Source of the DNA: Carboxylicivirga linearis
GTDB taxonomy: Bacteria > Bacteroidota > Bacteroidia > Bacteroidales > Marinilabiliaceae
Direction of reading: 5' to 3'
Assembly (NCBI RefSeq): GCF_018271995.1
Contig: NZ_JAGUCO010000014.1
Location: 62,001 to 126,000 of the forward strand
DNA length: 64,000 nucleotides
The first letter of the stretch is position 1, and each line of letters opens with the position of its first letter. The notes beneath the pieces were generated by a model that made no database searches, had not been told where the DNA came from, and worked only from the letters and a program-made list of their open reading frames with translations. Positions 44,827-63,200 of the stretch are shown piece after piece. The position numbers and the translations under genes were made by a program.

Positions 44827-44866
44827 AACACAGAATACAAATCTTTAATTTAAAAAATTGACAAAA

Positions 44867-46060
44867 ATGAAAAAGCTATTATTTTCTTTATCCTTAGCCC
44901 TTCTGGCTTTAAGCTCATGTAACGATGATGACCCAACAAACAATACGGGTGTTATTGATGGCAACTTAATAAAAGGTGATGTTGTAGAAGATCTGGAGTT
45001 AGATCCAACCGTAGATTGGGTACTGGACGGAACACTTAGTGTAAAAAAAGGTGCAAAATTGACCATCCCCGCAGGAACAACCATTAAAGCAAAATCAGGA
45101 TTTTATAGCTATATTATGGTTGAGCAAGGTGGGCAGATTTTCATCAACGGAACTGCAGAAGATCCTGTTACTTTAACATCTAATGCAAGTACTCCAAAAG
45201 CGGCAGATTGGGGTGGATTGCATATCAATGGTTATGCTCCTATCTCAGGTGCAACCGAAGGAACCACTAATAAAGCAGAAGTTGATGCCAGTTTAGAATA
45301 TGGAGGAACCGATGCTAACGACAATTCAGGTTCTATCACTTACTTAAAATTAATGTACACCGGAGCCCGCTCTTCTGCAGATGTTGAACACAACGGTTTA
45401 ACTTTAAACGGAGTTGGTAACGGTACCACAATTGAAAATATTTACATCCCTTACGGTGCTGATGATGCCATTGAATGGTTTGGTGGAACAGTTAATGTTA
45501 AAAACCTTTTGGTTGTTAATCAGGATGATGATATGTTCGACGTAACCGAAGGATGGTCGGGTACACTTGAAAATGCATTCGGAATTTGGACCGAAGGATT
45601 CTCTTCAACAGAGGCAGACCCTCGTGGTATTGAAGCTGACGGTAACATGGACGGAAATGGACCCGATCATGTTGGACAATCAGATTTTACAATGAAAAAC
45701 ATTACCATCGTTAATAACTCAGGCACTCCTAAATTCTCTGAAAGTGAAGATGGAAACAAAGGATTACGCGAGTTAGTAAAAATCAGACGAGGTGCAACTG
45801 CAACCTTGGAAAACATCTTATTGAAAAACGGTGATTGTGATGTATTAATCGATTTCCAGGATAGCAAACACGATGGTGAAACTTCATCAGTTATAACTTA
45901 CACTGTTGAAAATGTGAGTTGGGATGAAGATAAGTATGGAGAAACAGGTGTTAGAATGCCGGAAGCAGGTGATGCAACAGTTAATAAAGTTGAAGGTAAC
46001 ACAGGTTGTCCAAACCCGGAAGAATTATTTGGATGGACAGGTTTTACTGAGTGGAACTAA
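44867..46060 (+). CDS. Lipoprotein with beta-helix-like repeats, partner of the TonB receptor
   Basis: The ATG at 44867 is chosen over the TTG at 44858, giving MKKLLFSLSLALLALSSC (lipobox Cys18). The mature 380 residues have a repetitive, Gly/Asn-rich pattern (VKKGAKLTIPAGTTIKAKSG, VEQGGQIFINGTAEDPVT, GTTIENIYIPYGADDAIEWF, GATATLENILLKNG), suggesting a right-handed beta-helix. Such lipoproteins occur beside this type of TonB receptor in many Bacteroidota, probably as a surface capture protein. The ligand is unknown. A terminator follows 49 bases downstream. Confidence 0.75.
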   Translation: MKKLLFSLSLALLALSSCNDDDPTNNTGVIDGNLIKGDVVEDLELDPTVDWVLDGTLSVKKGAKLTIPAGTTIKAKSGFYSYIMVEQGGQIFINGTAEDPVTLTSNASTPKAADWGGLHINGYAPISGATEGTTNKAEVDASLEYGGTDANDNSGSITYLKLMYTGARSSADVEHNGLTLNGVGNGTTIENIYIPYGADDAIEWFGGTVNVKNLLVVNQDDDMFDVTEGWSGTLENAFGIWTEGFSSTEADPRGIEADGNMDGNGPDHVGQSDFTMKNITIVNNSGTPKFSESEDGNKGLRELVKIRRGATATLENILLKNGDCDVLIDFQDSKHDGETSSVITYTVENVSWDEDKYGETGVRMPEAGDATVNKVEGNTGCPNPEELFGWTGFTEWN

Positions 46061-46153: not shown

Positions 46154-48586
46154 TTAGTTTGAAAGTGAATCATTCTCATCAGCTTCCTTATTAACAGGAT
46201 AAATATGCAAATCGCGCTGTGGGAAAGGAATGGTAATATTAGCCTCTTTAAAGGCATTATCAATAGCCACACCCACTTCACTTTTTATCTTTAATCCTTC
46301 ATCAAAATGAGTCCAGAACATTACTCTAAAATCCAATGAACTATCACCAAATCCTTTGAAAATAATAAACGGACTAGGATTTTTCATCACGCCCTCTTGC
46401 TGGGTAACAACATTATCTAATATTCCAAGAACTGTTTTTAAATCGGTTCCATAGCTTACTCCCACTAGTAATTCTTGACGACGCCTTCGATCTGACAAAG
46501 TCCAGTTTACCATTTCATTCGAAATAAGATTACCATTGGGAACAATAACCTCTGCCCCATCAAAAGTTCGTATAACACTGGCTCGGATACCAATTTCTTT
46601 CACTTCTCCCATCAGGTTCAAGCTACTTATTTGCAACACATCTCCTACTTGAATCGGTCGTTCAAACGCTAATATCAATCCTGACACCAGATTATTAAAG
46701 ATATTTTGTAATCCAAAACCAATACCCACACCCAAAGCACCAAAAATGATAGTGATATTACTAATATCAATACCGGCAGCTCCAAAAGCCAGAATAAATC
46801 CAAATGCAAGAAGTATCAATCGAACCAGCATTGTAATAGCCCCACCTAAACCGCGTGGTAATTCAAAATGAGTATAGACCTCATCTTCCAAAATAAACCT
46901 TATAAATCTCGAAATATAAATAGTAACGGTAAGGGTAATTACAAATGAGAAAATATTACCTAATGAAAAACTAAATGATTCCAACTCCAACTTACTTGTT
47001 AGTATAGCTGATATCCATTCATATATTGGAGAGTAAATAAGATACCGTTTAGCTGCAGCAATTAACCAATAAATAACTGCGCTATAAGTAAGCAACTTAA
47101 AACTCCATTTAAGAATTTCATCCGGAAAGTTTCTGAATACATTCAAATCCACCAAAATACGATGGCGTACAATTAATTCGAATATACTTTTGATTACTTC
47201 TACAGAAGAGAAAATTATTAATCCACCATATACAAGAGCTATAGCACCATTAAATAAAATTATCGACAAATAATTATTACCAATTACGTTGATTATAACC
47301 GATAGACTAACTGAAAACAAGCCAACCAGTAAAATCCTCTTGCTAAATAGTTTATACTCGTCTGTTTTTACTTTAATGTTTTGTTTTAGCCATTTCCAAA
47401 CGGACGCAAATATAAAAGTACATAATACTGCATTTACTAATACAAGTAGTCTACTTAGTATAACGAAACTGCTGAATAAGTCGGTTAATACGATAAAAAG
47501 AAAAACAAGGGCAGATAAATAGAAAAAACGATTCGGCAATTGACTCCAAACAAATGGCAATATTCGAAGAAGAGGAATTATTAAAAGTAACTTTAAAACA
47601 TCTTTTATTTCGGGTGTTAAATCTGGAAAAAATATTAATAGAAGCAGACTAGAAAACAGAAATGAAGATGATATAGTTTTGGATATAAATATATACGGCA
47701 ATTTAATACTGGCACTTTCTAAAAGCTCATCATTACTATTTAATTTCTTTTTTACGAAAACAAAAAGTGAAATAAACAGTGAAAAAATGATGATATAAAT
47801 TAAACTACTATGTATCAACGAATCTTTATGACTCACAATAGAACTTCGTCTAAGTTCCAGAGTATTAATGATTCGTTTTTTAATTGAAAGACTATCCTTA
47901 TCGTTTTTAAAAGCCGACCACAATGGAGGACTATCTGATGAATATATTTGAGTTCTCAATCTTTCCAAAAGGTTATTGATATTCATCAGAACTTCATCAA
48001 TAAATAAAATCGCTCCTGTAATTTCATCCTGCTTTGTTAAAGCTGAATTATTATACTGATCAACTTTACTTAACAAGTTTTGCAAATCAGCAATATTGCT
48101 TTCAATTCGTTTTATGACAGGATCCGGGCTACCTTGTTCTTTCTGAATCTTATGCGTTTCATTCCACTTTTGAATTAATTCCTGAATTTTACTTTTATAA
48201 ATATTTAAGTTGGTTGATGTCGCTGATAATTCCTTTCTGGCTTCTTCCAGATTAGATTTCAAATTCAACAACCGATCGTTTAACTCTTCGGTCTGCCTGA
48301 AATCTAAATTAGAAAATGACTCATATGAATAAGTATTTCTATAATCTTTAACTTTCTCCAATCGATCCTTTGCAAGTGAATCGATCTCATCCTTATCTTT
48401 TAACCCTTCGAGTTCTCCTTTAACATTACGTATAAACGACTGCGTTTTTTCCGTCTCTGCACCAATATTAACAGTTGAAAAATAACCTTTTTCGGTTTCA
48501 ACAGAATCTTTTTCTAATAAATTAACCTGAGAAAAAGTGGTGACTGAAAGGAATATACTAACAATTAACAAATAGAATTTTGTCAT
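46154..48586 (-). CDS. Large MscS-family mechanosensitive channel with periplasmic coiled coil
   Basis: The first Met (48598) is followed by a second at 48586 that begins a signal peptide (MTKFYLLIVSIFLSVTTFSQ); the latter is preferred. The N-terminal ~230 residues are coiled coil (LEKDSVETEKGY, LNDRLLNLKSNLEEARKEL), then about ten hydrophobic segments from residue ~260. The C-terminal MscS core has the pore helix (ITIIFGALGVGIGFGLQNIF), GLILAFERPIQVGDVLQI and IRTFDGAEVIVPNGNL. The layout is that of MscK-like channels, which release solutes on osmotic downshock. It is 67 bases downstream of the TPR-CHAT gene on the same strand, so the two are probably one operon. Confidence 0.88.
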   Translation of the reverse strand: MTKFYLLIVSIFLSVTTFSQVNLLEKDSVETEKGYFSTVNIGAETEKTQSFIRNVKGELEGLKDKDEIDSLAKDRLEKVKDYRNTYSYESFSNLDFRQTEELNDRLLNLKSNLEEARKELSATSTNLNIYKSKIQELIQKWNETHKIQKEQGSPDPVIKRIESNIADLQNLLSKVDQYNNSALTKQDEITGAILFIDEVLMNINNLLERLRTQIYSSDSPPLWSAFKNDKDSLSIKKRIINTLELRRSSIVSHKDSLIHSSLIYIIIFSLFISLFVFVKKKLNSNDELLESASIKLPYIFISKTISSSFLFSSLLLLIFFPDLTPEIKDVLKLLLIIPLLRILPFVWSQLPNRFFYLSALVFLFIVLTDLFSSFVILSRLLVLVNAVLCTFIFASVWKWLKQNIKVKTDEYKLFSKRILLVGLFSVSLSVIINVIGNNYLSIILFNGAIALVYGGLIIFSSVEVIKSIFELIVRHRILVDLNVFRNFPDEILKWSFKLLTYSAVIYWLIAAAKRYLIYSPIYEWISAILTSKLELESFSFSLGNIFSFVITLTVTIYISRFIRFILEDEVYTHFELPRGLGGAITMLVRLILLAFGFILAFGAAGIDISNITIIFGALGVGIGFGLQNIFNNLVSGLILAFERPIQVGDVLQISSLNLMGEVKEIGIRASVIRTFDGAEVIVPNGNLISNEMVNWTLSDRRRRQELLVGVSYGTDLKTVLGILDNVVTQQEGVMKNPSPFIIFKGFGDSSLDFRVMFWTHFDEGLKIKSEVGVAIDNAFKEANITIPFPQRDLHIYPVNKEADENDSLSN

Positions 48587-48652
48587 TTTTATAGTCATAA
48601 GTAAGTCTAATATTAGATTTCTTTTTAGGTGAATGCGACGGACATTGTCAAT

Positions 48653-51600
48653 TTACTGATTATTTTTAAATCTTTTAATGAAAACAATCAGCGATATAGG
48701 AAGAATCAATAATAAATACCAGTAATAAGAGTGGTTTTGTTGCTCAATAGGACTAGTATTTCCGGTTACAACATAGTTTGCCCAATAATAAGGATGTGCT
48801 TGAATAGCACTTGAACTCTCTATAAATTCAAGTTTTGCATGACGTAAAGCTTCATCTTTAAATTTTTTATTCTTGAGCTGACTATAAAAGAGCTCCGTTA
48901 ACTTAGCTCCTGATTGATCATGAACCGGCCATAAAGTAAACACCTGTGTTTCTACTCCAGAAAATTTAAATGCCCTTGCCAAACTAATTAAACCTTCCCC
49001 GTTCTTTCTTCGTCCCCTTCCTGTACTACAAGAACTTAAAACAACCATTGGAGAATTTAGATTGTAATTATAAAGTTCATATGCTTTTAAAACCTCATTT
49101 GAATCATTCACAGAAGAGAATACCAGTTGTGAATTAAGAGGCAGTAACTCATCATTTAACGAATGCATTGCCAGGTGCATTATATTATTAGCATTGGCAT
49201 TATGCAAAAAGTTTGCTTTACTTGCTTCATCCCCTTCATATATTTCAGAATTAAATATCTCACTAATATTTTCAATTTCATCCTTTGCCGAAGCAAGAGG
49301 CATCAAATAGTTATTTATTGCCTGACGAATATTAACCAATATAGAATCTTTCATTGATTCATCACCGTAATATTCAGGTGCAAAAGAATATACCTTATTA
49401 AACATTCGTTTCTTTTCATTGAAATCTGGCAAAATAGCAGCATTATATTCATAACTAAGATTATACTCTTTAATCAACCATGGATAATGTCTAAAATCAG
49501 GTTTCTGAGAAGAAACATCTTTTGTTAGTAAAGATTCAAATGAAAGATAAGCAAGTTCGGCATGGGGTATAATAATAAGATCTTTCCCTTTTATATCCTC
49601 TTTTATACTACCAAGCAATTTTGTGTATAAATAGTTGGAAGCTTTTGCAAATGTTTTAATCCTATCAACCGAATTGCCTTTTCCTAAAAACGGAGATGAA
49701 ATTTCTTTCAAAACCAAATTCAGATCATCGTAAAACAAATTAGCAACCGGAACTTCATTCACTCTATAACTATCACGAGTTAATATAAATTGAATTAAAC
49801 GGTCATCAGATAATAAATAATCAATCAAAACCTGATTATCACCCAACCTGTTTTGTATATCTTCAATCGATGCTAAAGGAGGTACATATTTTAACTGGTA
49901 ATAATCTGGGTAATTTGTTTGGATAATAGTATTCAAACTATCCAATTCTTGCAGATATTTATCTCTATTATTCATAAGGTAAGCCAAATCATCTTCGTTA
50001 GGCTTTGCACTTAATTTTAAATGATCCACCTCGTTTTGATAAAATGACAAACGACCTTTTAAATGATTTTCTTCTTGTATCAACGAATCGGGTATGCCTG
50101 CCCGAACTTTAATTTGTTTATCATTCAAGCCCAACAATAATGAATAGGATTTTCCCTTTTGGGCAAATTCATATGCATTTTTCAAATAATACTCTTGATG
50201 AGTAACATTATATAAATCTATGTTTATTTTTACAGCAAGCTCAATATATTCAGCATACAAATCTCCCATGGCCACTCTATCGGTATCAAAGTTTAACTGC
50301 GACCGCACTGCATCAATGGATTGATCTGCTTGCTCCAAATGCTCCAGAGATTTTTGTAAATGATCATTTATATTAGTCTGCTTATATATTCCATAATAAG
50401 CTTTTGCCAAATTTAAATTCACTCTTTTAAACAGCCGTGAAATCCGGGAGGCATTATTCTGCTGAATATCATAAGAATATTGAAGTATTACTTGTTGGTA
50501 AACAGGATTAAGTATGGCAATTACATTAGCATAATCATTTAGTCCTAAATATGCCAAAGCCATGTCATTGGTATTATCCCAATATTCATAAGGCGCAAAA
50601 TTCTCATCTTTATGCAGAATACTTTCGAGTTGATTGAAATATTGAATACTCTTGGTGTAATCTTTTAATGCTAAATAGGTCCAGGCCACTTGATTATTTA
50701 GTATTTTATTTGATTTAAGCTGATCTTGTTGTATAGCATCAACAATGGCGGAATCAAGGTAAGCCTTTGCTCTAGTTAAGCTGTCCAAATTGGCAAATAA
50801 ATTGGCAATGCTGGCATAACTAAGATAAAGTGCATTTGTTTTTTTTATTTTAGCTTCTTTAATCGCTTGCTCTGCATATTTAAAACTTAACTTCTCATTA
50901 TCCAGATCACGATATATTCTTGCAATTTGTTTGCAAGATTCCGGCCTATTATTTCTGTAATTAACAATTGGATCACTAATATTGAGGGCTTTTTGATAAT
51001 AATTTAATGCCTCAGTATATCGACCACTTTTTTTCAAATAATATCCTAGTCTATTATATAATATACTTAGATCAAAACGATAAGAGTTTAAATTAGAAAG
51101 ATAGAAATCTTCCAACTTCCTAGCTGTTTTGTCAAGTTCATTCGACAAACCTATATCAGTGCAAAAAAGAAGATAAGTACTATAGAGATATTCATTCTCC
51201 CTTGTTACTTCCTTATTAAAGCTTAAACTAAATAACTCTTTAAATAAATCATTTGCTTCCTCATATCTTTTATATCCTGAACTCAAAATCTTTATATAAG
51301 AAGCTGAAGACATATTATACCCTAGATAATCATTATTTTCATAAAGCAACTTTTTTGAAAGTTCAAATGATTTACGTGTAAACTCTAACTTTTTCTTTCT
51401 ATTACTACTATAACAAATTGCTAAATTATGGTATATCTTAGCTTGAATACTGTCTGGTAAAGATTTCTCATCAGATAAATTCAATAATTTATTAAAAATC
51501 AACAACGCATCATTTCGCCTATTACTACCTAGATAAATACACGCTTCATAAAAAGTGACATAGTCCCTAAACTCAACTGATTGATTTTGGTTTTTTAGTT

Positions 51601-51877
51601 CTGAAAGAAGATCAAATGCATTTGGCAAATCAGAAATTTGTACATAGGCCTTAAAAACATGTGCCAAAATAATAAGATCTTCAGAACTGGATAAAAGACT
51701 ATCCTTATTTATTAGATAATTTGCTCCTATATCAATTACTTCCTTAAAACTATTTTGATAGTATGCTGATAAAACTTCTTCTTGTATAGTATCTTGAACA
51801 TTTTTAGCACCCAACAAACAAGGATGCATAATGCTGAATATCAGCATTATTGATATATGTAAAATATTTTTTTTCAA
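48653..51877 (-). CDS. Exported TPR-CHAT protein (caspase-like protease candidate)
   Basis: 1074 residues. A signal segment (ILHISIMLIFSIMHPCLLGA) is followed by ~600 residues of helical TPR-type repeats (SLYNRLGYYLKKSGRYTEAL, AYLGLNDYANVIAILNPVYQ). The CHAT domain has the catalytic pair His905 (IMHLAMHSLNDEL) and Cys950 (VVLSSCSTGRG), and a conserved LWPVHDQSG loop. A C-terminal membrane helix (YWYLLLILPISLIVFIKRF) anchors it. CHAT domains are caspase-family peptidases; other TPR-CHAT proteins, such as Craspase, cut protein partners. The location is probably periplasmic. Divergent from the peptide-export operon; 86 bases separate the starts. Confidence 0.88.
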   Translation of the reverse strand: MKKNILHISIMLIFSIMHPCLLGAKNVQDTIQEEVLSAYYQNSFKEVIDIGANYLINKDSLLSSSEDLIILAHVFKAYVQISDLPNAFDLLSELKNQNQSVEFRDYVTFYEACIYLGSNRRNDALLIFNKLLNLSDEKSLPDSIQAKIYHNLAICYSSNRKKKLEFTRKSFELSKKLLYENNDYLGYNMSSASYIKILSSGYKRYEEANDLFKELFSLSFNKEVTRENEYLYSTYLLFCTDIGLSNELDKTARKLEDFYLSNLNSYRFDLSILYNRLGYYLKKSGRYTEALNYYQKALNISDPIVNYRNNRPESCKQIARIYRDLDNEKLSFKYAEQAIKEAKIKKTNALYLSYASIANLFANLDSLTRAKAYLDSAIVDAIQQDQLKSNKILNNQVAWTYLALKDYTKSIQYFNQLESILHKDENFAPYEYWDNTNDMALAYLGLNDYANVIAILNPVYQQVILQYSYDIQQNNASRISRLFKRVNLNLAKAYYGIYKQTNINDHLQKSLEHLEQADQSIDAVRSQLNFDTDRVAMGDLYAEYIELAVKINIDLYNVTHQEYYLKNAYEFAQKGKSYSLLLGLNDKQIKVRAGIPDSLIQEENHLKGRLSFYQNEVDHLKLSAKPNEDDLAYLMNNRDKYLQELDSLNTIIQTNYPDYYQLKYVPPLASIEDIQNRLGDNQVLIDYLLSDDRLIQFILTRDSYRVNEVPVANLFYDDLNLVLKEISSPFLGKGNSVDRIKTFAKASNYLYTKLLGSIKEDIKGKDLIIIPHAELAYLSFESLLTKDVSSQKPDFRHYPWLIKEYNLSYEYNAAILPDFNEKKRMFNKVYSFAPEYYGDESMKDSILVNIRQAINNYLMPLASAKDEIENISEIFNSEIYEGDEASKANFLHNANANNIMHLAMHSLNDELLPLNSQLVFSSVNDSNEVLKAYELYNYNLNSPMVVLSSCSTGRGRRKNGEGLISLARAFKFSGVETQVFTLWPVHDQSGAKLTELFYSQLKNKKFKDEALRHAKLEFIESSSAIQAHPYYWANYVVTGNTSPIEQQNHSYYWYLLLILPISLIVFIKRFKNNQ

Positions 51878-51962
51878 AAAATCTTATTTTTTTTTCTAAA
51901 AAAGGTGTTACGATTTCGATGTTTTGCAATTAACCTATGAAAACTAACAAAAACAATAGGTC

Positions 51963-52103
51963 ATGAAAACAATTAAAACTACCCAGGAAAAACGCAATCA
52001 ATATATAAAGTTTAACTCTAAAGATAATGCTTTTTTAAAAAAGATTATTGGTGGTGAAGAAGATAACTATGAAGATGAAGAAGAAGTAAAAATGCAGATC
52101 TAA
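51963..52103 (+). CDS. Double-glycine leader peptide, candidate secreted peptide precursor
   Basis: 46 residues: MKTIKTTQEKRNQYIKFNSK, then DNAFLKKIIGG, cut expected after GG, then EEDNYEDEEEVKMQI. The leader fits C39-exporter leaders: G at -1 and -2, hydrophobic at -4 (Ile) and -7 (Leu). The 15-residue core is strongly acidic (8 Asp/Glu), has no Cys and therefore no disulfide or lanthionine pattern. It is followed by a hairpin and then by HTH, HlyD and C39-ABC genes on the same strand. It is probably a signalling or regulatory peptide exported by that pair, or a bacteriocin-like peptide. No close family recognised. Confidence 0.65.
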   Translation: MKTIKTTQEKRNQYIKFNSKDNAFLKKIIGGEEDNYEDEEEVKMQI

Positions 52104-52196
52104 CATAAAAGAAACATTAAGTGCTTTGGACGAAGAAACTTATCAAAGATCTCAATTCAAGAATAATGGTCTGAACGCAGACACAGTTAGTGAAAA

Positions 52197-52246
52197 GAAG
52201 AAAGCGGAGCCCCCCAAAAGTTTCCCGATTCTAGCTTCGCTTCTTC
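52197..52246 (+). terminator. Hairpin between the GG-peptide and HTH genes
   Basis: GAAGAAAGCGGAGC pairs imperfectly with GCTTCGCTTCTTC over a 23-base loop, followed by TCTTTCCT. It would let the peptide gene be transcribed more strongly than the exporter genes, the common arrangement in peptide-export operons. Confidence 0.5.
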
Positions 52247-52284
52247 TCTTTCCTAATATTAGTTAAATGGGAAACCTAGTAGTT

Positions 52285-52524
52285 ATGGCACTAAAAGAAA
52301 TAAACCGAACTATCAACTGGATAGATCAGGAAATACGTAGACAAGAAACCGGAACTCCTAATGAGTTTGCCGGTAAAATGAGTATGTCTGTTCGCATGCT
52401 TTTCTTTTACTTAGATATGATGCGTAATTTAGGTGCAGACATAACATACTGTAAACGCAGAATGACTTTTGAATATGCAAAAACCGGCCATTTTATCAAC
52501 GGCACTAAGTGGGTTGAAGATTAA
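52285..52524 (+). CDS. Small HTH (DeoR-like) protein
   Basis: 79 residues from the preferred ATG at 52285; an upstream ATG at 52267 is also in frame. The sequence IDQEIRRQETGTPNEFAGKM, then SMSVRMLFFYLDMMRNLGAD and ITYCKRRMTFEYAKTGHF, matches small Bacteroidota HTH proteins (R.DqlIr...TGtP.eFA.klnvS...ly.yL..mk.LGA.I.Yd). It may control expression of the peptide or exporter, or act as a cytosolic partner. Its position between peptide and exporter genes is typical for such units. Confidence 0.75.
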   Translation: MALKEINRTINWIDQEIRRQETGTPNEFAGKMSMSVRMLFFYLDMMRNLGADITYCKRRMTFEYAKTGHFINGTKWVED

Positions 52525-52622
52525 GTGTAAAAAGTTATTTTGCAAGATTATTATTACTCCACACAATCAGGCTATGGTCGTTTCAACTTTAAATAGTATT
52601 TTAACGTCCCTGAAACTAAATC

Positions 52623-53768
52623 ATGCCTCAAACCACACTTTGGAAAAACAATAAGTTTAAAATCTACTCACGCTTTTACTACAAAGGCTTCGTTTTATAT
52701 TGGATTTTACTTTCAATAATTATCATCTCATTAATATCTCTTCCTCTTATTAAGGTAGATGTCAGCACCCAAAGCAGAGGCATAATAAAAACAATTAACA
52801 AAATTAGCCCAATCTACCCTGGAATTTCTGCCAAAGTAGCATTTCTGAATATTAAAGAAAATCAAACCGTTTCTAAGGGAGATACTCTATTAATATTGGA
52901 ACAAAAAGGTATTGACAGTGAAGTTGACATTGCGCAAACCCAGATAGATATTTACCAATCTTACCTTAACGACATTGACATCCTGGTTAATGAACAAAAC
53001 AAACAGATAACAACTCCGCTTTACATTCAAGAAAAAGCAGATTTCATTAATGGTATAAAAAAACGAAAAAGAACCATTGAGAAAAATAAGATTGATTTTC
53101 AACGAACCAAGCAACTATATCATAATGATGTCGTTCCTATTTCCACATTGCAGGAAGATTCGTTCCAACTAAAATACTCGGAAGATGATTTGCTTGTTTT
53201 TGAAACTACTACACGAGCAAAATGGGAGCTTGATAAAAAAAACTTCACCATTAACATTCAAGATTTAAAGGTGAAAATTGAAAACCTTTTACAACAAAAG
53301 AACCAACTCCTAATAACTGCGCCATTCGATGGCAACATATTATCATTTAACGGCATAGCTAAAGGAAGTATTGTAAACGAAAACGAAGCGATTGCTATGA
53401 TTTCGCCGGAAGAGGACTTATTGGCAGAATGTTATGTATCACCTTCTGATATTGGGCTGATAAAAGAAAAGATGCCCGTTAGAATACAAGTCGATTCATA
53501 TAATTACAACCAATGGGGACTGATGAATGGATATGTTGAAAGTATCTCTCATGATGTCATTAATCAAGACGGTAAGTTTGTATATGTAGTAAGAAGTAAG
53601 ATGAACTCTGAGTACCTGATGTTAAATAATGGCTTAAAAGGACAATTAAAAAAAGGCATGAGCATAACAGGGCGTTTCATTGTAACTCAACGAACATTAT
53701 TTCAGCTTTTATTTGATAATATAAACGACTGGTTAAACCCTAAAATAAACCATCACCCTGCACAATAA
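52623..53768 (+). CDS. HlyD-type membrane fusion adaptor
   Basis: 381 residues. One N-terminal membrane helix (FVLYWILLSIIIISLISLP, residues ~27-45) is followed by the beta-barrel/lipoyl part (STQSRGIIKTINKISPIYPG) and a periplasmic coiled-coil hairpin (VDIAQTQIDIYQSYLNDIDI). The second lipoyl half follows (ITAPFDGNILSFNGIAKGS). It bridges the ABC exporter in the inner membrane to an outer-membrane TolC-like channel; no TolC is encoded here. Its stop overlaps the exporter start by one base (TAATG), so they are translationally coupled. Confidence 0.9.
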   Translation: MPQTTLWKNNKFKIYSRFYYKGFVLYWILLSIIIISLISLPLIKVDVSTQSRGIIKTINKISPIYPGISAKVAFLNIKENQTVSKGDTLLILEQKGIDSEVDIAQTQIDIYQSYLNDIDILVNEQNKQITTPLYIQEKADFINGIKKRKRTIEKNKIDFQRTKQLYHNDVVPISTLQEDSFQLKYSEDDLLVFETTTRAKWELDKKNFTINIQDLKVKIENLLQQKNQLLITAPFDGNILSFNGIAKGSIVNENEAIAMISPEEDLLAECYVSPSDIGLIKEKMPVRIQVDSYNYNQWGLMNGYVESISHDVINQDGKFVYVVRSKMNSEYLMLNNGLKGQLKKGMSITGRFIVTQRTLFQLLFDNINDWLNPKINHHPAQ

Positions 53769-55921
53769 TGAGTATTAAGGTTCAGCAATATGATCATGCC
53801 GACTGCGGAGCTGCTTGCCTGGCTTCTGTAGCCAGTTTTTATAAGCTAAAGTTAAGGTTATGGAAAATTCGGGAATTAGCAGGTACTAACTTAAGTGGTA
53901 CTAGTGCCTATGGAATTCTTAAAGCGGCTGAAACAATAGGTTTTGAAGCCAAAGGCATACAAATTAGCAAAGACGATTTACCTGAAATACCACTACCCTC
54001 AATTGCCCATTTAAAATTACCAGAAGGAGGACATCATTATGTTGTTATTTATAAAGTTGGTAAGAGGAAAATTAAAATAATGGATCCGGCTGAAGGAAGG
54101 TTAATAAATATGCCTCTTTCTAATTTCATAGACTTATGGACCGGTATTACCATTTTATTAATTCCTTCAATCGATTTTCAACAAGGAGTTCATAAAGAAT
54201 CTGCGGCTAAAAAATTATGGAATCTGGTTCGACCACATAACCATATATTGCTTCAATCAGGAATAGGTGCTTTAGCTTTTTCCACCCTTGGAATATCCAC
54301 AGCCATTTACATTCAAAAATTAACCGATTTTGTATTGGTGGGACACAACATTAACTTACTCAACCTCATGGGTATTTTAATGATTTTGGTAATTATTTTT
54401 CAGTTACTGTTAGGCATGCTGCAATCGTGGTTTGTGCTGCAGGTAGGACAAAATATAGATAGCACCCTAATAACCGGATACTTCCAACACTTATTGAAAT
54501 TACCGCAACGTTTTTTTGATAGCATGCGTGTTGGTGAACTTATTTCCAGGGTAAACGATGCCATTAAAATACGAAACTTTATTAACCAGGTTGCTGTGGA
54601 GGCAACAGTTGATCTGTTAATAATATTAGTAGCTTTTCTTGTAATGGCCATCATTAACTGGAAACTATCGCTACTTACATTGACGGTCACCCCTATCTAC
54701 GTACTTGTTTTTTTGCTCACCAATAAGGCAAACAGAAAAATTGAAAGGGATAAAATGAAAAAAACAGCCAAACTTGAAGTTCAGCTGGTTGAATCACTCA
54801 AAGCAGCTAAAACCATTAAACAAATGGGAGCTGAAGACTATTTTATTGCCAAAACAGAGACACGATTAATGGAAGTATTGGAAGAGGTCTACAGATCTGG
54901 TAAAGTTGATATATTATCCTCATACAATCTTCTTAGTATCAACAGACTAATCACTATTGCAATATTATGGATTGGCGCATTAAGTGTTATTAATCAACAA
55001 TTAACACCAGGTCAGTTAATGTCGTTTTTTGCTATCACCAGTTTTTTTACCGGCCCGGTTTCTCGTTTACTCGGGATGAATAAAACCATTCAGGGAGCTG
55101 TCATTGCAACCGATCGACTCTTTGAAATCCTGGATTTAAAAAGAGAGACTGATGATAGAAATTCATATAACAAGTTAGAAGAATTAATTATAGGTGATAT
55201 TAAATTTAAAGACGTTGAATTCCAATATACACTGGAACAAGAACTCTTTAAGAATCTTTCTTTCACCATTAACAAAGGTTGCATAACAGCATTGGTAGGT
55301 GATAGTGGCTCTGGAAAGTCGACTATTGGTTATCTATTACAAGGACTCTACCCTATTTCATCCGGAGCCATTTCTATTGGGCATGCTGATATCAATAATG
55401 TTGAACACACTCAACTCAGAAAAGCGGTAGGCGTTGTACCTCAGAATATTGAATTATTCGCGGGTAATTTAATTGAAAACATAGCTTTGGGTGATTATTC
55501 ACCGGATATGAATCGTATTTATGAGATAATTGATCTATTAAACTTACATGATATCATTGACAACCTGCCTGAAGGACTAAACACCTGGCTGGGTGAAAAT
55601 GCCAACCAATTATCAGGTGGTCAACGACAAAGATTGGCAATTGCGCGAATGCTCTACCTAAATCCTGAAATATATGTATTTGATGAGGCGACTTCCTTTT
55701 TAGATGACAGAACAGAAACAGGTATTAAAAATCTGATACTGGATTTAAAAAAGAAAGGGAAAACGATCATTATGGTAGCTCATCGTATGAGCACCATTAA
55801 TATTGCAGAACAAATATTGGTATTTGAAAAAGGAAAAGTCATTGAATCTGGCAATTACAATGATTTAATCAGCCTAAATGGACGATTTTTTGAGATGGTG
55901 CAACATCACAGAAAAAGTTAA
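53768..55921 (+). CDS. C39 peptidase-containing ABC exporter (PCAT)
   Basis: 717 residues. The N-terminal C39 peptidase is complete: Gln7, Cys13 (QQYDHADCGAACLASV), His90 (GGHHYVVIYK) and Asp106 (KIMDPAEG). Six membrane helices (about 160-430) precede the ATPase with Walker A GDSGSGKSTIGYLL, signature LSGGQRQRLAIARML and Walker B IYVFDEATSFLDD. It cuts leader peptides after Gly-Gly and exports the mature peptide. The intact catalytic triad means it is a maturing exporter, matching the GG-peptide gene 1.7 kb upstream. The neighbouring adaptor completes the trans-envelope path. Confidence 0.95.
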   Translation: MSIKVQQYDHADCGAACLASVASFYKLKLRLWKIRELAGTNLSGTSAYGILKAAETIGFEAKGIQISKDDLPEIPLPSIAHLKLPEGGHHYVVIYKVGKRKIKIMDPAEGRLINMPLSNFIDLWTGITILLIPSIDFQQGVHKESAAKKLWNLVRPHNHILLQSGIGALAFSTLGISTAIYIQKLTDFVLVGHNINLLNLMGILMILVIIFQLLLGMLQSWFVLQVGQNIDSTLITGYFQHLLKLPQRFFDSMRVGELISRVNDAIKIRNFINQVAVEATVDLLIILVAFLVMAIINWKLSLLTLTVTPIYVLVFLLTNKANRKIERDKMKKTAKLEVQLVESLKAAKTIKQMGAEDYFIAKTETRLMEVLEEVYRSGKVDILSSYNLLSINRLITIAILWIGALSVINQQLTPGQLMSFFAITSFFTGPVSRLLGMNKTIQGAVIATDRLFEILDLKRETDDRNSYNKLEELIIGDIKFKDVEFQYTLEQELFKNLSFTINKGCITALVGDSGSGKSTIGYLLQGLYPISSGAISIGHADINNVEHTQLRKAVGVVPQNIELFAGNLIENIALGDYSPDMNRIYEIIDLLNLHDIIDNLPEGLNTWLGENANQLSGGQRQRLAIARMLYLNPEIYVFDEATSFLDDRTETGIKNLILDLKKKGKTIIMVAHRMSTINIAEQILVFEKGKVIESGNYNDLISLNGRFFEMVQHHRKS

Positions 55922-55945
55922 ACAGTTTCATTCCTTAAATCTTTG

Positions 55946-55953
55946 TACTTTTG
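55946..55953 (+). promoter_or_regulatory. -7 box (TACTTTTG) for the MATE gene
   Basis: TACTTTTG followed by CGC fits TAnnTTTG. It lies inside the upstream open extension of the MATE frame, so the ATG at 55973 is the true start. Confidence 0.75.
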
Positions 55954-55972
55954 CGCTTCTTTCAAGAAAGAA

Positions 55973-57316
55973 ATGAAGCTAAAAAACAGATACAATCAAC
56001 ATTATTGGCCAAATATAAAACTGGCCACACCTATTGTTTTAGCACAGGCAGGTCAGATGCTTGTCAATCTGGCCGACACCCTTATGGTTGGTCAGGTGGG
56101 AACAACCCCTTTGGCTGCGGCTTCTTATGCTAACAGTATTTTTATAAACATTTTATTTTTTGGTGTAGGAATAACTTTTGCGTTAACCCCATTGGTAGGG
56201 AAAGCCTTTGGTGCCCGTAAAAAAGAAGAATGTGCTTACTGGCTGAAACAAGGATTGTGGGCCAACTTTATTATAGGAGCAATATTAACCCTTATATCTG
56301 GTGCTTTTTATTTTGTGCTTCCCTACATGGGCCAAGAAGAAAGTGTTTGGAAAGAAGCTGGCCCATACTTTTTATTGTTAGCAACTTCTATAATACCGCT
56401 TCAAGTTTTTAATACCTATAAACAGTTTACCGAAGGATTAAGCAACACAAAAATTGCCATGATAATTACCATTGGTGGTAATATTTTAAATGTAATCCTC
56501 AACTTCATACTCATATATGGTCATTTTGGTGTACCTGCATTAGGCTTAATTGGAGCAGGAATTGGCACTCTAGCCTCCAGAATTATGATGGCAATTTCCT
56601 TCACTATTATTTTACCACGAATTAATCGTTATAAAGATTACATAAAAACACATACCAGTTCTTTTTCGATTGATGCATTTAAGAAAATAAGCAAGCTGGG
56701 AATGCCTATAGGACTGCAATTTGTAATTGAAATTTTTGCTTTCAGTCTGGGTAGTATTATGATGGGTTGGATAAATGCAGAAAGTTTGGCTGCTCATCAA
56801 ATAGTTTTAAGTTTAGCCAGCCTGACCTATATGATGTCATCCGGATTAGCCTCTGCCACAACAATTAAAGTTAGCATATTCCGTGGCAAAAAATTATTCC
56901 ACGAAATAAAAAACACTGCTTTTGCCTCGTTACATCTTGTGATTATATTTATGAGTTTGACAGGAGTATTATTTTTTAACCTTCGTCATTTTTTACCAAG
57001 CTTATTTGTCGACGAACAGGAAGTAATTCTTTTGGCTTCTGTTTTAATGATTGTTGCAGCTTTCTTTCAGATTTTTGATGGAATTCAAGTTATCACCTTA
57101 GGTATATTAAGAGGTTTGGAAGATGTTGTAGCTCCCGTTATTGGTGCTGGAATTGCCTATTTGCTTATCTCTGTTCCAACCGGATATTTAGTGACCTTTA
57201 TTTTTAATGCCGGTCCCATTGGAATTTGGATTGGCTATATGGTTGGATTAGCTTCAGCCGGTGTATTTTTGCTCATTAGATTTAGAACACTTTACCGAAG
57301 AAATTATGAAAATTGA
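55973..57316 (+). CDS. MATE-family multidrug exporter (NorM-like)
   Basis: 447 residues from the ATG at 55973. Twelve hydrophobic helices; MATE motifs PIVLAQAGQMLVNLADTLMV, GVGITFALTPLVGKAFGA and GILRGLEDVVAPVIGAGIAY fit the NorM branch. It expels cationic drugs in exchange for Na+ or H+. The longer frame from 55943 is rejected because it would start within the promoter box. The gene's end overlaps the comB-like start. Confidence 0.92.
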   Translation: MKLKNRYNQHYWPNIKLATPIVLAQAGQMLVNLADTLMVGQVGTTPLAAASYANSIFINILFFGVGITFALTPLVGKAFGARKKEECAYWLKQGLWANFIIGAILTLISGAFYFVLPYMGQEESVWKEAGPYFLLLATSIIPLQVFNTYKQFTEGLSNTKIAMIITIGGNILNVILNFILIYGHFGVPALGLIGAGIGTLASRIMMAISFTIILPRINRYKDYIKTHTSSFSIDAFKKISKLGMPIGLQFVIEIFAFSLGSIMMGWINAESLAAHQIVLSLASLTYMMSSGLASATTIKVSIFRGKKLFHEIKNTAFASLHLVIIFMSLTGVLFFNLRHFLPSLFVDEQEVILLASVLMIVAAFFQIFDGIQVITLGILRGLEDVVAPVIGAGIAYLLISVPTGYLVTFIFNAGPIGIWIGYMVGLASAGVFLLIRFRTLYRRNYEN

Positions 57317-58022
57317 CGTAATAAATACTGCACAGGAAGTAACATCAAAAAAAGTAAAAGGGAAAACATCAGTAGTAATTGATATTTTACGAGCGACTTC
57401 TGTAATGACTACCGCCATTCAGAATAATGCTACCCAAATCATTCCCGTTCTTACACCAGAAGATGCTTTTCAAATTAAATCCAAGAAAGGAAATAATACC
57501 ATCTTGGGTGGAGAAAGAAATGCCGAACTTATTGAGGGTTTTGATTATGGCAATTCACCTTTATCATACACCAAAGAAGTGATTGAAAATAAATGCTTGA
57601 TCATTACCACAACCAACGGAACATTAGCTATAAAAAACGCAGTGGAATCTGATGAGCTTTTTATTGCATCCTTTTTAAATGCTCAGGCTACAGTAAATCA
57701 ACTTATCAACTCTAATGATATTGTTTTAATTTGCTCTGGCAACAATGGAGTTTACACCTTAGAAGATAATCTTTGTGCCGGCTTTATTATTAGCTTATTA
57801 AATGCTAAACTTGAAAATGTAGATTTAACCGATTCTGCTATTGCATCTTTAAGTTTATATCAATCAACTAAAACTAACGTTGTAAAATTAGCTTCCAAAG
57901 GATACCATTACAACGTATTAAAAAGTAAACAATTCGATGATGATCTAACCGAATGTTTCACACCTAATAAATACGATGTTGTTTTAAAATGGAATGGTGA
58001 AAGCATAATAAAGGCTGTTTAA
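57306..58022 (+). CDS. comB: ComB-family 2-phosphosulfolactate phosphatase
   Basis: 238 residues from the ATG at 57306, overlapping the MATE stop by 11 bases, so the genes are coupled. Family features: VVIDILRATSVMTTAI, LGGERNAELIEGFDYGNSP and LIITTTNGTLAI. ComB hydrolyses 2-phosphosulfolactate to sulfolactate in coenzyme M synthesis in archaea; many bacteria have it without the rest of that pathway, and the role there is unclear (sulfonate metabolism is possible). No comA or comC is in the window. Confidence 0.88.
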   Translation: MKIDVINTAQEVTSKKVKGKTSVVIDILRATSVMTTAIQNNATQIIPVLTPEDAFQIKSKKGNNTILGGERNAELIEGFDYGNSPLSYTKEVIENKCLIITTTNGTLAIKNAVESDELFIASFLNAQATVNQLINSNDIVLICSGNNGVYTLEDNLCAGFIISLLNAKLENVDLTDSAIASLSLYQSTKTNVVKLASKGYHYNVLKSKQFDDDLTECFTPNKYDVVLKWNGESIIKAV

Positions 58023-61164: not shown

Positions 61165-61237
<73 letters not shown>

Positions 61238-61246
61238 CACAAGGAT

Positions 61247-61330
61247 GCCCGAGTGGTGGAATTGGTAGACACGCAGGACTTAAAATCCTGTGGCCATTAG
61301 GCCGTGCGGGTTCAAGTCCCGCCTCGGGTA
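61247..61330 (+). tRNA. tRNA-Leu (TAA), copy 1
   Basis: 84 bases with the long variable arm GGCCATTAGGCC, anticodon TAA (loop CTTAAAA), T arm GCGGGTTCAAGTCCCGC. The acceptor stem GCCCGAG/CTCGGGT is followed by an encoded CCA (61331-61333), which copy 2 lacks. Confidence 0.95.
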
Positions 61331-61353
61331 CCAAGCTGGATTCATCCAGAACC

Positions 61354-63031: not shown

Positions 63032-63104
<73 letters not shown>

Positions 63105-63113
63105 CTCAAGGAT

Positions 63114-63197
63114 GCCGAAGTGGTGGAATTGGTAGACACGCAGGACTTAAAATCCTGTGACCATTAGGTCGTGCGGGTTCAAGTCCCGCCTTCGGTA
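63114..63197 (+). tRNA. tRNA-Leu (TAA), copy 2
   Basis: 84 bases, anticodon TAA. Compared with copy 1, the acceptor stem changes on both sides (GCCGAAG/CTTCGGT against GCCCGAG/CTCGGGT) and the variable arm too (GACC/GGTC against GGCC/GGCC). All pairs are kept, so both genes are intact. No encoded CCA. Confidence 0.95.
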
Positions 63198-63200
63198 CTC

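Follow-up and report, generated by a model that had tools for sequence, protein, structure and literature searches.

The window, a stretch of 64,000 nucleotides from the genome of Carboxylicivirga linearis (G000), contains two divergent gene groups, with a gap of 85 bases between the genes of a TPR-CHAT protein and a GG-leader peptide. The features of the locus, numbered from the first letter of the window, are the following:

46154-48598, minus strand: MscS-type channel; a neighbour outside the conserved set, beside CHAT in 3 of 18 family loci
48653-51877, minus strand: TPR-CHAT protease of 1074 aa with a TTG start (Pfam CHAT, E 1.5e-45)
51906-51934, plus strand: promoter-like motif TGTTACG-N12-TGCAATTAAC between the divergent genes, 28 bp 5' of the peptide start
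51963-52103, plus strand: GG-leader peptide precursor of 46 aa with an acidic 15-aa core after the GG (homologues, codon-position bias)
52267-52524, plus strand: small HTH-like protein of 85 aa, for which an internal Met start is possible (match in 16 of 18 scanned genomes)
52623-53768, plus strand: HlyD-type adaptor of the peptide exporter (Pfam HlyD_3, E 2.4e-15)
53768-55921, plus strand: C39-peptidase ABC exporter (Pfam Peptidase_C39, E 4.2e-33; ABC_membrane; ABC_tran)
55943-58022, plus strand: genes of a MATE transporter and a 2-phosphosulfolactate-phosphatase-like protein; downstream, conserved, and counted as non-core

All the genes named in the original prediction are present where it had placed them. 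The MATE transporter and phosphatase-like genes were considered as core parts and set aside as syntenic neighbours. A reading of the locus as a defence system was also dropped: the PADLOC matches are only of generic TPR and ATPase types. Elsewhere in the window, positions 44858-46060 encode a 400-aa protein that follows a TonB-dependent receptor gene and for which searches of Pfam and NCBIfam at E ≤ 0.001 gave no match. Positions 61165-61333 and 63032-63198, approximately 1.9 kb apart, each contain a copy of a tRNA-Gly(gcc)/tRNA-Leu(taa) pair.

Conservation of the locus and its exported peptide

The named relatives of the locus belong to Carboxylicivirga and other Marinilabiliaceae of the order Bacteroidales. 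CHAT proteins at E ≤ 1e-40 are encoded in 18 of 71 family genomes, and the family comparison covers the window and 17 other CHAT loci (L032-L038, L040-L049); many of the genomes in the analysis are drafts. The genes of the peptide, HTH-like protein, HlyD adaptor, C39-ABC exporter, and MATE transporter are divergent from CHAT in 15 of the 18 loci, which belong to 14 genus members and G029. The predicted grouping of peptide, exporter, and TPR-CHAT is therefore a conserved unit. It is kept in all 14 genus genomes, in each of which an ortholog of the C39-ABC exporter adjoins CHAT. The MscS channel, which had been proposed as a further member, does not belong to the unit, because it is beside CHAT only in the window, G007, and G019. 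In G034, CHAT and the peptide gene are near a contig end, and a relative of the HTH-like protein ends another contig beside other genes; a close C39 relative was not found in this genome, the best match having 30% identity. G032 and G020 have neither a peptide nor a C39 gene beside CHAT and no genome-wide C39 match at E ≤ 1e-80; the G032 assembly is 72% complete and its CHAT gene is cut by a contig edge.

A divergent GG-type ORF is located within 700 bp upstream of all 14 CHAT genes with enough sequence among L032-L047, a set that omits the window, L038, L048, and L049, versus 1 of 83 control genes. L048 and L049 have no divergent GG-type ORF. The GG peptides were found by a regular expression, and the gene starts are first-start guesses. 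The 16 peptide homologues from 15 loci have invariant leader positions up to the GG, and the leader has hydrophobic residues at positions -4 and -7. The cores of the 16 sequences are 13-20 aa long and mostly acidic, with net charges of -7 to +1 and a variable middle part, and most of the peptides end in a tail of the type K-hydrophobic-K/Q-hydrophobic. In the last 22 codons of the leader, the third positions differ in 0.379 of the comparisons among 15 sequences, versus 0.170 and 0.161 for the other two positions. The approximately 2.3-fold excess of third-position differences indicates that the peptide ORF behaves as a real coding gene.

The C39 peptidase-ABC exporter, HlyD adaptor, and GG-leader precursor occur together in 15 of the 18 family loci. 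No dedicated immunity gene was recognised among the annotated operon genes, an annotation that could miss small genes. The gene predicted to encode a small HTH protein is present, but its assignment to the HTH proteins is weak: HTH_11 is matched in 5 of 15 members, with a best E of 0.034, and the protein from the window has no match in Pfam or the PDB. Peptide genes also occur in other arrangements. Four tandem GG-peptide genes beside the CHAT gene of L079 (L079:6037-6958) have a common core end, YPTIDGDFDYWPEPEV. Upstream of CHAT in L105, L106, and L111, which represent three lineages, the peptide cores all have acidic ends that follow the pattern DIYD(T/L)(R/D)E.

The TPR-CHAT protein and its sigma-factor partners

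The TPR-CHAT protein is composed of a hydrophobic N-terminal helix, a TPR superhelix, the CHAT domain with H905 and C950, a C-terminal transmembrane helix, and a basic Lys/Arg tail. His905 and Cys950, which had been described as intact, are indeed present, and neither of them varies among the 91 aligned relatives. According to a simple hydropathy rule, 88 of the 91 relatives have the C-terminal transmembrane helix, 87 a net positive tail, and 69 the hydrophobic N-terminal helix. The hydropathy suggests that TPR-CHAT is a periplasmic protease anchored by its C-terminus. The mean identity of 15 sequences is 0.68 over residues 895-990, which form the active-site region, versus 0.34 over residues 201-500 of the TPR part.

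The Pfam CHAT match, the conserved His and Cys, and the predicted fold place the protein among the CHAT/separase-like proteases of clan CD. The AlphaFold model calculated from 91 sequences has a pLDDT of 91.0 and a pTM of 0.88. The first six rows of a Foldseek search against the PDB are Csx29, the TPR-CHAT protein of Craspase, and human separase is next. Csx29 (8eey_B) is matched with an E of 3.5e-12, a TM score by target of 0.47, and an rmsd of 14.2 over 916 columns; the high rmsd shows that the domain arrangement of TPR-CHAT is unlike that of Csx29. The match to separase (9hma) has an E of 1.8e-11 at an identity of about 11%. The resemblance to Csx29 emerged by fold only, as sequence search did not provide a match to it. 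An earlier AlphaFold model from 15 sequences, poor in the catalytic region, still gave the Csx29 match. In the alignment rows for the TPR part of this 15-sequence model, the superhelix resembles many TPR proteins, including RRNPP pheromone receptors. The RRNPP receptors, such as NprR and Rap, are cytoplasmic, and unrelated TPR proteins match TPR-CHAT equally well or better; the resemblance shows no function.

In 13 of the 18 family loci, CHAT is followed by genes for a protein of approximately 245 aa and then one of approximately 191 aa, both convergent to CHAT. The shorter protein is an ECF-type sigma factor, in which Sigma70_r2 is over the cut-off in three of three scanned sequences, and which matches SigW (5wuq) with an E of 1.5e-5. 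The longer protein has an N-terminal domain, one transmembrane helix near residues 84-103 (a single helix in 11 of 11 family members), and a TPR-like C-terminus. In Pfam it has TPR matches only and none to anti-sigma factors, and the label is therefore derived from position and architecture: the protein is anti-sigma-like, and its binding to the sigma factor is putative. In an alignment of 103 such proteins, 14 from the family and 89 whose genes lie close to CHAT elsewhere, the linker that joins the transmembrane helix to the TPR part has Arg at position 127 in 84 sequences and Lys in 17. The alignment was used instead of a regular expression for the linker, which matched 16 of 50 proteins.

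In the window's genome, the pair is located on another contig (G000:C112:5286-6579). The original reading of the locus as peptide-linked proteolysis or signalling in the envelope was a good one, but it missed this most widespread partner of TPR-CHAT, the ECF sigma/anti-sigma pair, which lies outside the window. The pair is also apart from CHAT in G007, G018, and G019, yet in all four genomes it is beside the gene block that flanks the pair elsewhere, and which we take to resemble SecDF/TatA. Since the pair and CHAT of G019 are on one contig, about 0.43 Mb apart, their separation is the result of a rearrangement and not of an assembly gap. The anti-sigma is encoded in 17 of the 18 family genomes with CHAT at E ≤ 1e-40 and in none of the 53 others. 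G032 is the one CHAT genome without the anti-sigma, and it contains a sigma relative (E 4.2e-55) where a contig ends; G020 has a distant pair. The genes could be linked only because a core part of the chromosome has been inherited in the same order, with no joint function, and the flanking housekeeping-type genes are also syntenic within the genus. This explanation is very improbable, because the grouping recurs in other families amid different surroundings, and CHAT and the anti-sigma stay a phyletic pair after rearrangement.

A CHAT match at E ≤ 1e-40 is present in 133 of 324 genomes of the order, from which 60 regions of 60 genomes were sampled. The regions were taken from the upper part of the match list, with their neighbourhoods unseen and some matches skipped, many of them near contig starts. 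Fifty of the CHAT genes have at least 4 kb of sequence on both sides; within 3.5 kb of them there are a sigma gene in 41 cases, an anti-sigma gene in 40, both in 40, and a C39-ABC gene in 12, and 21 of the 50 have a divergent GG peptide. The density of genes per 100 kb near versus far from CHAT is 13.6 versus 0.2 for sigma, 13.3 versus 0.2 for anti-sigma, and 3.1 versus 0 for C39; these loci also served to build the profiles of sigma and anti-sigma, which aids detection there but not the contrast between near and far. GG-type ORFs are divergent from 23 of 59 CHAT genes, versus 2 of 316 control genes, and the peptide cores differ between lineages. The C39 gene accompanies the peptide, occurring at 10 of 21 loci with and 2 of 29 without a GG peptide (Fisher p 0.0017, ignoring ancestry, the genomes not being independent).

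The phylum set outside the family consists of 63 named loci from Aquimarina, Spirosoma, Runella, Dyadobacter, Cyclobacterium, and other genera. Sigma and anti-sigma genes are both within 3.5 kb of 34 of the 44 CHAT genes that are flanked by 4 kb or more in each direction. Within 900 bp upstream of CHAT, this set contains one doubtful GG-type ORF and none that is convincing. Because the pair is widespread and the peptide confined, the core of the system is formed by sigma, anti-sigma, and TPR-CHAT, and the peptide with its exporter is an extension of some Bacteroidales lineages. Among the order loci that lack a divergent GG peptide, 14 were listed, and ten of them have a gene for a secreted-looking protein of 400-441 aa just upstream of CHAT; in another of the 14, L062, a GG peptide is encoded on the same strand as CHAT. 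One upstream protein that was scanned contains a T9SS sorting domain and a dockerin. It is possible that the secreted 400-440-aa protein is an alternative partner of CHAT where the GG peptide is absent.

A promoter-like element upstream of the peptide genes

In all 15 aligned regions, the peptide gene is preceded by the element TGTTACG-N12-TGCAATTAAC with fixed spacing. Exact copies of the complement, GTTAATTGCA-N12-CGTAACA, number five in G000 and one to nine in each of the 13 other genus genomes. With one mismatch allowed, 17 of the 71 family genomes contain the motif. They comprise every one of the 16 genomes with the close pair and, of the 55 others, only G039, which has one site. The backwards control of the motif has no match in the 71 genomes, and the motif is absent from G020 and the incomplete G032. 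The examined sites are often 28-60 bp before a gene, and the genes encode the peptide, LytTR regulators, small proteins of unknown family, and HTH proteins; other sites are farther from genes or face no clear ORF. Reading of the motif as a promoter towards CHAT was dropped, as the target genes are mostly on the peptide side, towards which we infer the motif to be oriented.

Some of the HTH proteins behind motif sites end in a GG leader. Relatives of the window's small HTH-like protein at the sites of L218, L235, and L241 have a GG-type leader and a short core at their ends, as does another such relative at a second C39/HlyD locus of the window's genome (L050:7995-8321, G000:C93). One such end is ...LKVSGG|YTLLTNLSEINLVSLKK. 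In these proteins, an exported peptide seems to have the HTH part as its leader.

An unsupervised Gibbs search of 25 regions upstream of GG peptides of the order resulted in the element gGGTnACnTTTT-n10-gGAAtAaat, which has 19.1 bits, versus 11.9-12.8 bits in 12 shuffles that were mononucleotide and run with fewer restarts than the real set. A matrix was derived from 15 hand-picked clear instances among the 25 regions; the other 10 peptides are without a clear copy. In the 60 order loci, the matrix has 48 matches above 16 bits, 13 of which are training copies, versus 2 on the reversed sequence. Matches of more than 14 bits lie before 11 of the 53 sigma genes located near CHAT and before 9 of the 26 genes upstream of CHAT that encode proteins of 330-480 aa, but before 1 of 53 anti-sigma genes, none of 63 CHAT genes, and 6 of 509 other genes. 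The remaining 42 sigma genes score below 14 bits, and seven inspected upstream regions of sigma genes from the genus itself contain no clear copy. Judged by eye, the elements of the family and the order have the common part GTTAC-N14/15-G[GC]AATTAA. The loci with the element before the upstream secreted-protein gene are L053, L059, L073, L082, L087, L089, L095, L097, and L101. Histidine-kinase-like genes near CHAT also carry it in L063, L068, L073, L079, and L089; of these, only the L079 gene was scanned, and it has HisKA and HATPase domains.

An ECF factor often recognises its own promoter, and the simplest reading is therefore that the CHAT-linked sigma factor reads the element. Control of peptide transcription by the ECF sigma factor is fairly likely. 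Points against it are the many sigma genes that score below 14 bits or have no clear copy, the absence of the motif from G032 and G020 despite the sigma relative of the one and the distant pair of the other, and that the genomes with the motif and the pair may simply share ancestry. The HTH-like family, itself among the motif targets, could act as the regulator instead. The small HTH-like protein would then read the motif, the peptide, HTH-like protein, and exporter would form a circuit of their own, and CHAT would be regulated beside it. The motif sites before HTH-family genes (L203, L218, L235, L241) agree with this alternative, as does the distribution of the small HTH, which is the same as that of the close sigma pair in the 18 genomes scanned. 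It is nevertheless unlikely, because the 60 order loci contain a single HTH profile match (32 bits, about 7 kb from CHAT), while the related element still precedes GG peptides and some sigma genes in the order. The distance of 28-60 bp before many targets also fits a promoter.

Proposed pathway and its relation to known systems

We propose, with moderate confidence, that the locus supplies the peptide and the protease, one half of a signalling pathway whose other half is the ECF sigma/anti-sigma pair, and in which TPR-CHAT frees the sigma factor by cleavage of the anti-sigma. After export, TPR-CHAT would stay attached to the inner membrane through its C-terminal helix, and the single-helix anti-sigma is predicted to have its TPR domain in the periplasm. 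Once the TPR superhelix is engaged, CHAT would cut the linker of the anti-sigma at the outer side of the membrane and close to it, and further degradation of the anti-sigma would yield free sigma. By analogy with Csx29, the anti-sigma is probably the substrate of CHAT. Separases and metacaspases cut after basic residues, and the Arg/Lys at anti-sigma position 127 is therefore a testable candidate for the P1 residue. The sigma factor would transcribe a regulon including the GG-leader peptide operon, and the C39-ABC/HlyD exporter would trim and export the peptide, which may be a ligand of the TPR domain, providing positive feedback, or else a secreted output only. The proposal builds on the observed gene linkage, the conservation of the dyad, the similarity of fold, and the distribution of the motif; the topology, the cleavage and where it occurs, the reading of the motif by sigma, and the sensing of the peptide are predictions.

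Parts of this pathway resemble known systems. Separase combines a TPR-like superhelix with a caspase-like protease; it is eukaryotic and cytosolic or nuclear, and cuts cohesin. The GG leader, C39-ABC exporter, and HlyD adaptor in one operon are like PCAT export of the ComAB type. However, ComAB is accompanied by the histidine kinase receptor system ComDE, whereas here the exporter is bound to a TPR-CHAT/ECF-sigma module with no histidine kinase receptor beside it. The proposed logic of proteolysis of a membrane anti-sigma is that of DegS/RseA/sigma-E, but DegS is a PDZ serine protease and TPR-CHAT a caspase/separase-like cysteine protease with TPR. In that system, according to PMC10028731, an envelope protease cuts a one-helix anti-sigma outside the membrane and the ECF sigma factor is released.

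The best fold match, Csx29 of the type III-E CRISPR system with Csx30 and CASP-sigma (Craspase/DiCASP), shares the TPR and CHAT parts with the His/Cys dyad. The same paper (PMC10028731) describes the gene of this TPR-CHAT protease beside those of an inhibitor and an ECF-like sigma factor, an arrangement seen here as gene linkage, and the cleavage by Csx29 of Csx30, which binds and inhibits the ECF-like CASP-sigma. Unlike Csx29, the protease described here has a signal-like N-terminus and a C-terminal transmembrane helix and is predicted to be periplasmic. The inhibitor is a small TPR protein with one transmembrane helix, and in this lineage an exported peptide would replace the RNA-guided input. 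No Cas7-11 gene or CRISPR array was recognised among the genes annotated beside CHAT.

The role of the peptide as the trigger of CHAT is possible, but the case for it is short of even. In its favour are that the two genes are paired divergently, that the element is shared, and that the TPR half evolves faster; the peptide-less lineages do not support it. Because 36 of 59 order CHAT genes lack a divergent GG peptide and none in the phylum set is convincing, the peptide is not the general trigger. The full sequence of events, in which the secreted peptide binds the periplasmic TPR sensor, the anti-sigma is cut after Arg/Lys, and the ECF regulon makes more peptide, so that the protease is a peptide-gated separase, is put forward as a tentative proposal.

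A realistic alternative, which we also rate below even, is that CHAT, anti-sigma, and sigma sense something else, such as envelope or secretion stress, and that the peptide, which might for instance be a small bacteriocin or a peptide of the matrix, is only a regulated product that is secreted. The core pair and CHAT are without a GG peptide in most phylum loci, and the upstream 400-441-aa genes of peptide-less order loci, with the element before nine of 26 such genes, agree with this. However, the peptide is directly divergent from CHAT, in all 14 cases of the family set and in 23 of 59 order cases, which is closer than an unlinked output would need, and the bacteriocin variant lacks a recognised immunity-like gene among the annotated operon genes. 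Alternatively, CHAT might process the exported peptide, with the sigma pair only setting expression. This is improbable: the close gene pairing and the conserved tail of most peptides would fit, but the linkage of CHAT, anti-sigma, and sigma in peptide-less lineages would be left unexplained.

A literature search of titles and abstract openings, with subscription journals mostly outside its coverage, did not return a description of such a system, and the accessible parts of PMC8103513 and PMC7159879 contain nothing on CHAT proteins with sigma factors. The combination of a protease, a membrane-held sigma switch, and an exported peptide looks like an undescribed signalling route. We know of no role assigned to the periplasmic type of TPR-CHAT proteins, nor of a dedicated peptide-pheromone pathway in the phylum. 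The analysis ties TPR-CHAT proteins, which are common in the phylum, to an ECF sigma/anti-sigma pair, with a candidate substrate and cleavage residue named. The system offers a CRISPR-free relative of the Craspase output and a proposed peptide signal in Bacteroidota. If the proposal is true, the peptide-gated separase would provide Bacteroidota with a system of peptide signalling; it would also be a CRISPR-free counterpart to the output module of Craspase, which may even have originated from it.
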